Positions 58,203-61,657 of a stretch of 64,000 nucleotides of DNA are shown here, in pieces (positions within the stretch are counted from its first letter, which is position 1; each line of letters starts with the position of its first letter). The DNA comes from Gammaproteobacteria bacterium (GTDB lineage: Bacteria; Pseudomonadota; Gammaproteobacteria; Pseudomonadales; Litorivicinaceae). The notes beneath the pieces are model-generated. The model searched no databases, was not told the origin of the DNA, and worked only from the letters and a program-made list of their open reading frames with translations. The stretch is taken from assembly GCA_024640985.1 (NCBI GenBank), contig JAHEDY010000006.1, positions 1-64,000 on the forward strand, in the 5' to 3' direction. The position numbers and the translations under genes are program-made.

Positions 58203-58829
58203 GTGAAGGATTTGATTGACGTGCGTGATACCCAAGTCGACCCTCGGTTGGCACAAACCAAATTTTTAATCAGCGCTCCGACACTGAACCACTGCCCGCC
58301 AGAATGTGGTCCCGAAATCGGCTTCTGTGGCCGTTCAAATGCCGGTAAATCAAGCGCCCTCAATACGCTCACGGGGCAAAAAAGTCTCGCGCGAGTTTCA
58401 AAAACACCTGGACGAACCCAGCTCATCAATTTCTTTGAAGTGCCCGGAACCGGCGGGTTTTTGGTCGATTTACCCGGTTATGGTTTTGCCAAGGTTCCTG
58501 AAGCGATCAAAAAACAATGGCAACAGCATCTCGGCGAGTTTCTTGCAGAACGACGGACGTTAACCGGGCTCGTTCTTTTGATGGATGTCAGACATCCCAT
58601 GACCACACTGGATCAGCAAATGTTGTCTTTTGCTGACCACCGTGAGATGGATACCTTGTTGCTTTTGACCAAGAGTGACAAGCTCAGTCGCAACCAGGCA
58701 GCCAAATCAAGGCTGTCCGTGCAAAAAGATCGGCCGCGCTCTGTGGTGTTGAATTTTTCGAGTTTGGATAAAACTGGCATCAAAGAAGCGTCGGAATGGA
58801 TCACTCACCATCTTGAAGGCCACGCATAA
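58203..58829 (+). CDS. engB: Ribosome biogenesis GTP-binding protein EngB (YihA/YsxC)
   Basis: A 208-residue GTPase needed for 50S subunit assembly. G1 is GRSNAGKSSALNTLTG, G2-region VSKTPGRTQLINFF, G3 VDLPGYGFAKVP and G4 LLTKSDKLSRNQ, all typical. The start is most likely GTG 58203; in-frame TTG 58212 and GTG 58221 are alternatives. It faces polA across a gap that holds a predicted small RNA, the same arrangement as polA-spf-engB in E. coli. Confidence 0.94.
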   Translation: MKDLIDVRDTQVDPRLAQTKFLISAPTLNHCPPECGPEIGFCGRSNAGKSSALNTLTGQKSLARVSKTPGRTQLINFFEVPGTGGFLVDLPGYGFAKVPEAIKKQWQQHLGEFLAERRTLTGLVLLMDVRHPMTTLDQQMLSFADHREMDTLLLLTKSDKLSRNQAAKSRLSVQKDRPRSVVLNFSSLDKTGIKEASEWITHHLEGHA

Positions 58830-58914
58830 TAAAAACCCCGGTAGCTCACACCGGGGTTTCAACATCCGACAGGGGTCACGTCGGAACAACGAATGAGGGA
58901 ATCTCGTTGTCTTA
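58830..58914 (-). ncRNA. Predicted small regulatory RNA at the spf/ErsA locus
   Basis: About 85 nt, transcribed leftward after polA from a predicted sigma-E promoter (58920-58946) to a strong terminator (58833-58859). Three successive hairpins are visible: ACAACGA/TCGTTGT (58886-58910) with a C-rich loop containing TCCCTC, TCCGAC/GTCGGA (58865-58885) with loop GTGACCCCT, and the terminator. C-rich loops are what ErsA-like and other anti-Shine-Dalgarno RNAs use to block ribosome binding. Position, promoter type and structure parallel ErsA of Pseudomonas. The 5' end is estimated from the promoter. Confidence 0.6.
58833..58859. terminator. Bidirectional intrinsic terminator for engB and the predicted small RNA
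   Basis: AAACCCCGGT pairs with ACCGGGGTTT, a 10-bp GC-rich stem with a 7-nt loop. On the minus strand it ends in TTTTTATT, an excellent U-tract; on the plus strand the tail is TTTC. Confidence 0.85.
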
Positions 58915-58919
58915 CTAAG

Positions 58920-58946
58920 TAAGACTCCCTCAGTGCAAAAAAGTTC
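58920..58946 (-). promoter_or_regulatory. Predicted sigma-E/AlgU-type promoter
   Basis: On the minus strand GAACTT (58946-58941), exactly 16 bp, then TCTTA (58924-58920). The consensus for sigma-E/AlgU promoters is GAACTT-N16/17-TCtgA. The -10 lies in a 17-nt palindrome GTCTTACTAAGTAAGAC (58909-58925). Confidence 0.6.
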
Positions 58947-58966: not shown

Positions 58967-61657
58967 TTAGTGCGCCTCGAACCAGCTCTCACCACTACCG
59001 ATGTCCACCACCAACGGAACCGATAATTCGGCAGCGGCCTCCATTTCCAATCGGATGAGCTGTCGCGCTGAATCTAGGTCGCGATCCCTGACCTCAAAAA
59101 CCAATTCATCGTGTACCTGGAGCAGCAAATTACAACCTAAATCACTCGTGGCTAATGCCTGATGCACTCTGAGCATTGCTCGCTTGATAATGTCCGCAGC
59201 TGTTCCCTGCATGGGTGCATTAATCGCTGCTCGTTCTGCCGCTTGCCGAACCGGAACTTGTCTTGCATGAATATCTGGCAACGTCAGGCGTCGTCCAAAC
59301 ACAGTCTCGACATAACCCTTCTCATGCGCCATTGCACGCGTGGAGTCCATGTAGTGCCGAACCCCTGGATAACGCTCAAAGTAGCGATCAATGTAGGCTG
59401 CCGCTTCAGCGCGTTCAATCCCAAGTTGCCGCGCCAATCCAAACGCACTCATGCCATAAATCAAACCAAAATTAATGGCTTTCGCACGCCGCCGCTGCTC
59501 ATCTGTCACGAACATTGGCTCTAAATCAAATACCTCTGCCGCTGTCGCACGATGAATATCTTCACCGCGCGCAAACGCGTCTACCAAGCTTTTGTCACCC
59601 GATAAATGCGCCATAATCCTCAGTTCAATTTGCGAATAATCGGCTGCCATCACAGACCAACCATCTGGAGCGATAAAGGCTTTACGGATGCGACGGCCTT
59701 CCTCGGTTCGAATTGGAATATTTTGCAAATTCGGATCTGACGAAGACAAACGTCCGGTCGAGGTCACTGCCTGATGAAAAGAGGTATGCACTCGTCCATC
59801 TGCTGGATCACAGTCGCCGGGAAGTCTGTCCGTGTAGGTGCCCTTGAGTTTTGAAAGACTCCGATGCTCAATCAATAGTTTCGGCAACGGATAATCAAGG
59901 GCCAATTCCTGAAGCACTTCTTCGTTCGTCGATGGCGCTCCTTTTGGAGTTTTTTTCAGGACAGGTAACTGAAGCTCATCAAATAAAATCTCTTGCAGTT
60001 GTTTCGGACTGGCTAAGTTAAATGGCCGCCCTGCCAACGCCTGTGCCTCAGATTCCAACTGCTCGAGACGCACCCCAAGAGTCACTGATTGCGCGTTCAA
60101 AATATCGACATCCAGTAAGGCTCCATGATTTTCCATTTCTCTGAGAATCTGCATCACAGGGAGCTCTAACTCTTGGTAAATCGACTGAAGCGAAGGCACT
60201 TGATTCAAACGCTCTACAAACTGGTTGTAGAGCCGTAATGTGATATCGGCATCCTCCGATGCGTAGTGCGAAGCCGGCTCGAGCGCCACTTCGTCAAACC
60301 GAATCTGCTTCGCTCCTTTTCCACAAACGTCTTCGTAAGAGGTGGTTTCTACGCCTAACAATCGTTTTGCCAGGGAATCCATATCATGACGCCCCGCTGC
60401 TGCATCTAGCACGTAACTCATGAGCATGGTGTCGGCCAATCGGCATTGCGGCAGTAACCCAACGGTTTCCAGAATCGTGAGATCATATTTCAGATTATGG
60501 CCAACCATGGTCAGAGTGGCGTCACCGAATAAGCCTGACAATGCAAAAAGAACCTGGGTCATATCCAATTGTTTGCCCTCCACATGCCCCACCGGGATGT
60601 AACAGGCCTGGCCCGCAATGCAGGACAATGACACCCCAACTAACTTGGCATGTCTGGCCACCAATGAGGTGGTCTCGGTATCCAATGCAAAGATTTTCGT
60701 TTGCCGACATTGATCCATCCAAAAGGTCAGTCGCTCAGGCGTCGTCACTAATTCATAGGATGTCTCAATGGCTTCAGGAGTTGCCAAAGATGTTTCATTT
60801 GCCTCCGGGGATTGTTGAATTCGCTTCAAAAACTGATTCAGTTCGAGATCAGAATATAACGCCGCTAACTGTTCAACGTCTGGAGCAGATCGCGCCAAAT
60901 GCTCGAGACCAACGGGTAATTCACAATCGGTTTTAATGGTGACCAATGCCTTTGATAGCGGGAGCACATGCATATGCTCCCGCAAGGTTTCACCAATTTT
61001 TCCACCAATCGACTCAGCGCCTTCCACAACGCCATCAAGTGATCCGTATGCATTTAGCCACTTAGCTGCGGTCTTTGGGCCACATTTCGGAATACCCGGT
61101 ACGTTGTCGACACTGTCTCCAGTCAAAGCAAGAAAGTCGATCATGCGCTCCGGAGGTACGCCGAATTTTTCCTCAACGCCGACCGGCGTCAAAGTGCTAT
61201 CGCTCATCGTATTCACAAGGGTGACTTGGTCTGTCACAAGCTGAGCGAGATCCTTATCACCTGTCGAGATCAACACCTCTTCACCAGCGGCCTCTGCTTG
61301 CTTTGCAAGCGTCCCAATGACGTCATCAGCCTCGACTCCCGGAACGGCCAATAGCGGAAATCCGAGTGCTCGAATGATCGAATGCAAGGGCTCAATCTGC
61401 TCCCTGAGTTCATCCGGCATCTTTTCGCGATTGGCTTTGTACTCCGCATACATGTCATCACGGAATGTTTTCCCCGATGCATCAAACACCACAACCATTC
61501 GTTTAGCGCCAGTCGAATCAGCAAGCTTATTTAACATCGAAATGACACCCCGAATCGCACCAACTGGCTGACCGGTGCTTGTCGTCAGTGGTGGTAAGGC
61601 GTGAAACGCTCGGTAAAGATAGGACGACCCATCAACTAAAACCAAAGGTGCAGGCAT
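58967..61657 (-). CDS. polA: DNA polymerase I
   Basis: An 896-residue repair and Okazaki-fragment polymerase. The 5' nuclease domain (about residues 1-290) starts with LVLVDGSSYLYRAFHALPP and includes GVEADDVIGTLAKQA and TGDKDLAQLV. The 3'-5' exonuclease domain retains its acidic motif FALDTETTS, so proofreading is expected. The polymerase domain has SSDPNLQNIPIRTEEGRRIR, the motif A aspartate in MAADYSQIELRIMAHLSG, the O helix RRRAKAINFGLIYGMSAFG and motif C LLQVHDELVFEV. Divergent from thrB; its 3' flank is the small-RNA locus. Confidence 0.96.
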   Translation of the reverse strand: MPAPLVLVDGSSYLYRAFHALPPLTTSTGQPVGAIRGVISMLNKLADSTGAKRMVVVFDASGKTFRDDMYAEYKANREKMPDELREQIEPLHSIIRALGFPLLAVPGVEADDVIGTLAKQAEAAGEEVLISTGDKDLAQLVTDQVTLVNTMSDSTLTPVGVEEKFGVPPERMIDFLALTGDSVDNVPGIPKCGPKTAAKWLNAYGSLDGVVEGAESIGGKIGETLREHMHVLPLSKALVTIKTDCELPVGLEHLARSAPDVEQLAALYSDLELNQFLKRIQQSPEANETSLATPEAIETSYELVTTPERLTFWMDQCRQTKIFALDTETTSLVARHAKLVGVSLSCIAGQACYIPVGHVEGKQLDMTQVLFALSGLFGDATLTMVGHNLKYDLTILETVGLLPQCRLADTMLMSYVLDAAAGRHDMDSLAKRLLGVETTSYEDVCGKGAKQIRFDEVALEPASHYASEDADITLRLYNQFVERLNQVPSLQSIYQELELPVMQILREMENHGALLDVDILNAQSVTLGVRLEQLESEAQALAGRPFNLASPKQLQEILFDELQLPVLKKTPKGAPSTNEEVLQELALDYPLPKLLIEHRSLSKLKGTYTDRLPGDCDPADGRVHTSFHQAVTSTGRLSSSDPNLQNIPIRTEEGRRIRKAFIAPDGWSVMAADYSQIELRIMAHLSGDKSLVDAFARGEDIHRATAAEVFDLEPMFVTDEQRRRAKAINFGLIYGMSAFGLARQLGIERAEAAAYIDRYFERYPGVRHYMDSTRAMAHEKGYVETVFGRRLTLPDIHARQVPVRQAAERAAINAPMQGTAADIIKRAMLRVHQALATSDLGCNLLLQVHDELVFEVRDRDLDSARQLIRLEMEAAAELSVPLVVDIGSGESWFEAH

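Follow-up and report, generated by a model that had tools for sequence, protein, structure and literature searches.

We identified a predicted small RNA between polA and engB of a marine gammaproteobacterium. It is best interpreted as a sigma-E RNA of the ErsA type by position, with a sequence too diverged for the ErsA model to recognize. It is likely that this RNA of approximately 84 nt is driven by sigma-E, that its C-rich loops act on ribosome-binding sites and that it is the counterpart of Pseudomonas ErsA. Among named relatives of the source genome, Gammaproteobacteria bacterium LSUCC0096 is the closest, with a PolA C-terminus that is 95% identical; it belongs to the OM252 clade ('Candidatus Halomarinus'), classified by GTDB under Litoricolaceae, Pseudomonadales (PMC8269220). 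The source genome belongs to this marine clade, and its GTDB order is that of Pseudomonas.

The window analysed is a stretch of 64,000 nt, in which polA and engB are convergent and separated by an intergenic gap of 137 nt. The candidate RNA lies between the two genes in the same direction as polA, the slot and strand occupied by ErsA. Among the relatives searched, polA was detected in 94 of 97. The coordinates of the locus are given in Table 1.

Table 1. Features of the polA–engB locus in the window
Feature	Position	Strand	Basis and remarks
engB/yihA, GTPase, convergent downstream neighbour	58203–58829	+	ORF, stop at 58829; engB in relatives found via tblastn
Predicted small RNA, approximately 84 nt	58831–58914	−	Fold, covariation and model R1; ends predicted
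Intrinsic terminator hairpin and U tail	58832–58860	−	Fold; 97% of alignment cells paired
Hairpin 2	58866–58884	−	Loop with ACCCC (58872–58876), presumed pairing site; compensatory changes in 3 of 5 pairs
Hairpin 1	58885–58911	−	Loop UUCCCUC (58895–58901), presumed pairing site; UCCCU invariant in alignment A1
−10 element TCTTA, 16 nt 3' of the −35	58920–58924	−	Sequence; GTC invariant in alignment A1
−35 element GAACTT, sigma-E/AlgU-type promoter	58941–58946	−	Sequence; GAACTT in 18 of 19 genus gaps
polA, DNA polymerase I, upstream neighbour	58967–61657	−	ORF, stop at 58967

The sigma-E-type promoter that the initial annotation had proposed on the minus strand of this gap, GAACTT-N16-TCTTA, is present and stands directly upstream of the RNA, as the sigma22/AlgU-type promoter does in ErsA. 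This pattern occurs once in the window, against 0.35 expected from shuffling, and on a weight matrix trained on other families, ErsA loci among them, the site scores 18.2 bits. The strict pattern occurs twice in the 1.63-Mb genome, including the polA-slot site; the other site, which is not in register with any ORF, is apparently located within genes. Throughout the genome, GAACTT-N15-17-TCTNA was found two times and the same pattern read backwards 12 times, hinting at avoidance of stray sigma-E sites. We also observed a 7-bp perfect inverted repeat, GTCTTAC-TTA-GTAAGAC (58909–58925, minus strand), which spans the −10 element and the predicted start and is retained in part among relatives (GTCT..A....AAGAC). 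It is possibly an operator, or a by-product of stem 1.

The start of the RNA was set at 58914, 6 nt past the −10 element, and its 3' end at the U tract. Folding of the 85-nt stretch gives −33.9 kcal/mol, compared with −20.7 ± 3.1 kcal/mol for dinucleotide shuffles (z = −4.2), and the predicted fold agrees with the earlier description of three hairpins ending in a terminator with a T5 tail. The C-rich loops described for the first two hairpins were likewise recovered, as UUCCCUC and ACCCC. Hairpins 1 and 2 are directly adjacent; the third is a perfect hairpin followed by U5, and its loop is not C-rich. The terminator sequence forms a hairpin on the plus strand too, so it can serve engB as well. 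A simple terminator scan of the window did not list it, probably because its A-tract pairs with the T-tail. With covariance model R1, the window RNA, at 105 bits, was the only strong match in the genome.

We then analysed 19 polA–engB gaps from the same genus. The initial annotation had named a lack of conservation of the promoter or stems in relatives as refuting its reading and had proposed to look for compensatory changes in the stems; both conservation and compensatory changes were found. The gap of the cultured relative LSUCC0096 (L122), for example, contains GAACTT-N16-TCTGA together with the same RNA. The pattern GAACTT-N15-17-TCnnA was present in the sense direction in 15 of the 19 gaps and in none in antisense (mean for shuffles, 0.05 of 19), while a matrix trained only on other families gave at least 10 bits in 18 of 19, again with none in antisense. 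The sole exception is genome G014, of which the gap is degraded: its promoter (GCACTT) and terminator look decayed and the RNA is degraded, with rpoE still present, a possible case of recent loss. Alignment A1 shows no variation in the −35 element, in UCCCU of loop 1, in CC of loop 2 or in most of the terminator, and the spacer is variable; both C-rich loops are nearly invariant across the genus. Of the cells in the alignment, 91.7% pair in the three-helix structure. Six pairs were changed on both sides (shuffles, 2.9). The covariation score, 0.167, exceeded those of all 500 shuffles and that of the best slid version (0.079); as the genus sequences are related, these shuffle counts are not probabilities and overstate significance.

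Three genomes of a sister genus (L111, L113 and L118) were added in an alignment-free test of stems and loops. Their layout is unchanged and their stems are quite different. Stem 2 was found in five unrelated forms around ACCCC, namely, CCGACG/UGUCGG, GCUGGUU/GACCAGC, UCAAGCC/GGCUUGA, GCGCUGG/CCAGCGC and GAGCC/GGCUC, and stem 1 was likewise re-paired with other sequences around (U)CCCUC or CCUC. The single-sequence p-values of this test are modest (0.003 to 0.5), and the weight is carried by the repetition. Replacement of the stems with retention of the loops is the pattern expected if the loops pair with other RNAs and the stems only present them.

The genome also encodes the machinery for such a promoter. 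One RpoE-like sigma factor was detected, at 233.8 bits narrowly missing the curated cut-off (236). Two ORFs come after it, one RseA/MucA-like and one RseB/MucB-like, names assigned by reading the sequences, in an operon-like order rpoE-rseA-rseB; hfq was detected at 99.9 bits. A conserved promoter thus occurs together with a resident RpoE and its anti-sigma factor, as in the class of sigma-E-dependent small RNAs. RpoE is nearly universal among the relatives, leaving little room for a comparison of co-loss of RpoE and the RNA; in one sister-genus genome (G022, 97% complete) the promoter was present and no RpoE match was found. Within the rpoE locus of the source genome (L120), a sigma-E-like sequence, GAACTTTTTTGTAATGAACTTGTCAAA, lies at position 2059 of the plus strand, at the end of rpoE and before the anti-sigma-like gene, and judging from the sequence it is possibly an internal feedback promoter.

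Next, the window RNA was compared with known RNA families. No Rfam family reached its gathering score. In agreement with the earlier remark that no likeness to Spot 42 was apparent, neither Spot_42 (RF00021) nor ErsA (RF01719) matched the window up to E = 10, and no match was obtained with sX13 (RF02232) or alpha-r7/suhB-MmgR (RF00519). The models performed as expected on positive controls: the ErsA model gave 127 bits at L068 and 121 bits at L083, RF00021 matched L134 and L158, and RF02232 matched L191. The best sub-threshold match, Burkholderia anti-hemB (RF02837; 25.3 bits, E = 4e-4, gathering score 49.5), was rejected, as it probably reflects terminator similarity only, driven by the CCCCGG terminator.

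ErsA is a sigma22-dependent RNA with three stem-loops that works with Hfq on the mRNAs algC, oprD, amrZ and anr (PMC8575079, PMC7565897, PMC8395346), and according to a review it was originally recognized as functionally orthologous to Spot 42 (PMC8395346). The window RNA shares with it the polA–engB slot and strand, a sigma-E/AlgU promoter right after polA, the GTDB order, three stem-loops, C-rich patches and a terminal terminator. ErsA has 132 nt, with an unstructured, U-rich domain II separating SL1 from SL2 (PMC8575079), in contrast to the window RNA, which has approximately 84 nt and no such domain. It should not be classed as ErsA itself, because it fails the covariance model and lacks the length and the U-rich domain II of ErsA; it is probably a positional orthologue. 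The sX13 RNA of Xanthomonadaceae is also located downstream of polA, with three hairpins and C-rich loops, and represses mRNAs whose G-rich motifs, close to the start codon, pair with these loops (PMC3771888). Two of the three hairpins in the window carry such loops at their apex, downstream of polA as in sX13. Unlike the window RNA, which has engB as its neighbour and would probably use Hfq, sX13 has a neighbour other than engB in Xanthomonas, and it works without Hfq. The alphaproteobacterial alpha-r7/suhB-MmgR resembles the window RNA in its polA locus, three stem-loops and apical C-rich motifs (PMC3771888). Spot 42 of enterobacteria and Vibrio has the polA–engB slot in common with the window RNA but differs in promoter control, sequence and model.

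To place the promoter in a wider context, we surveyed polA loci beyond the family. Of 62 further regions lying 3' of polA in the same order, 19 carried the strict promoter in sense and none in antisense (shuffles, 0.17). Counted by family from one or two genomes each, some of them draft assemblies, a strict or near-strict promoter was present in 18 of 42 other families of the order; it was found in 16 of the 25 families in which engB is convergent and the gap measures 60 nt or more, compared with 2 of the 17 without this arrangement (Fisher p = 0.001). In two Pseudomonadaceae genomes, recognized as such by PrrF above its cut-off, RF01719 (Pseudomon-1/ErsA) matched in the slot directly past the promoter. 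Among 75 named loci of Gamma- and Betaproteobacteria, nine reached at least 12 bits on the matrix in sense and none in antisense (shuffles, 0.6); the nine include Methylococcales-type loci (L126, L135), Thiocapsa (L162), Sedimenticola (L129), Pseudidiomarina (L164) and Rhodanobacter (L136). Rfam models placed Spot 42 in the polA slot of Vibrio and Photorhabdus, and sX13 in that of a Lysobacteraceae genome. Used as a test of remote homology, R1 gave significant matches in L098 and, within the sister genus, in L111 and L118. The weaker R1 matches across the order fell mostly within the polA gap and were dropped as proof of homology, since R1 also matches terminators, including a plain bidirectional one elsewhere in the genome (L216, E = 0.018).

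Could the gap hold nothing but the polA/engB terminator and the 3' untranslated region of polA, the promoter match being due to chance? The hairpin is bidirectional, polA transcripts must stop there and the transcript itself is known only as a prediction. However, GAACTT-N16-TCnnA is kept in position and strand within the genus and in 18 other families, with controls near zero, and hairpins 1 and 2, which lie upstream of the terminator, covary and retain their loops, making the absence of a separate RNA very improbable. A diverged form of Spot 42, a catabolite-repression RNA, is hardly credible: the slot is identical, and Spot 42 does occupy it in Vibrio and Photorhabdus, but RF00021 finds no match in the window, and instead of the repression by CRP-cAMP that acts on Spot 42, the promoter here points to sigma-E.

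The relationship to ErsA can be read in two ways. A separate sigma-E RNA that arose independently in the polA slot of Litoricolaceae would explain why RF01719 finds no match and no similarity to ErsA is detectable, why length and layout differ, and why the window-family model reaches the ErsA of L068 only at E = 1.3. Such an origin is nevertheless unlikely. The same promoter occupies the same place in many intermediate families of the order, which makes repeated independent origin less likely than descent with fast divergence, and loss of similarity to ErsA is to be expected, because even among members of the family to which the window belongs the stems are fully replaced. Descent from an ancestor shared with ErsA is the simpler reading, given the shared order and the occurrence of the promoter across polA slots, including those of Pseudomonadaceae. 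The initial annotation had spoken of a third lineage at this locus; its promoter, hairpins and loops proved to be conserved, but the lineage is in the order of Pseudomonas, where the promoter is present in polA slots of many families, those with ErsA included, and a third lineage is not supported. More tentatively, with the odds somewhat against it, the slot may go back to an ancient gammaproteobacterial gene for a sigma-E-driven RNA with C-rich loops immediately 3' of polA. ErsA, sX13 and the OM252 RNA would be its descendants, along with unnamed RNAs of Methylococcales, Chromatiales and Idiomarinaceae, all too diverged to be recognized by sequence but keeping promoter, slot and loop logic, with Spot 42 as a promoter-switched branch.

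Considered as the Litoricolaceae counterpart of ErsA by position, promoter and layout, the RNA would be a free-standing transcript, made in the direction of polA from its own promoter and ending at a terminator that is probably common to polA transcripts. By analogy with ErsA and sX13, it would be made when the RpoE/RseA/RseB pathway senses envelope stress, and its loops UUCCCUC and ACCCC would pair with G-rich ribosome-binding sites of target mRNAs, lowering their translation, probably with Hfq. In searches for complements of both loops at start codons, no specific target emerged. The loop-1 complement GAGGGAA before ATG was found nine times, as was its control, showing no excess. The loop-2 complement AGGGGT before ATG was found 64 times, compared with 30 for the reversed control, an excess that Shine–Dalgarno sequences would give as well. 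As a candidate target, sdhB was rejected: most genus members retain its GGGG Shine–Dalgarno sequence, and G014, in which the RNA is lost, is among them.

The idea of a shared slot with divergent RNAs, also part of the initial annotation, is not new; a common polA slot for Spot 42, sX13 and alpha-r7 was proposed in the 2013 sX13 paper (PMC3771888). In a literature search of mainly freely accessible papers, we found neither a description of the OM252 RNA nor a statement of the sigma-E promoter as a general feature of the slot. Two things appear to be new: an RNA of OM252/Litoricolaceae unknown to Rfam, through which the ErsA-type class gains a member from an abundant marine clade, and the wide occurrence of a sigma-E promoter in the slot. 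These results suggest that the polA slot is marked by conservation of its sigma-E promoter and not of the RNA sequence. A promoter-based search is thus a practical route to counterparts of ErsA and sX13 missed by sequence models, and the published guess of a common polA-locus RNA becomes testable lineage by lineage.

Several loci showed additional features. In L106 and L098 (genomes G047 and G087), the polA–engB gap contains two successive units, each consisting of GAACT(T), a C-rich hairpin and a terminator, possibly a tandem pair of polA-slot RNAs. L050 contains two promoter sites, at positions 63 and 315. Alpha-r7 is otherwise described from alphaproteobacteria; in Pseudidiomarina marina (L164), a borderline suhB/alpha-r7 match (41.4 bits, cut-off 41) lies directly after polA at 2499–2580 of the plus strand, preceded by a sigma-E-like TGAACTA-N16-TCTGA. 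Finally, two Rhodanobacter loci (L136, L143) and the Lysobacteraceae locus matched by RF02232 (L191) contain sX13-like RNAs with three C-rich loops, preceded by the sigma-E-like sites AGAACTT-N16-TCTCA, GCAACTT-N16-TCTAA and GAAACTT-N16-TCTAT, respectively; judging from these motifs, sX13 may also be under sigma-E control.
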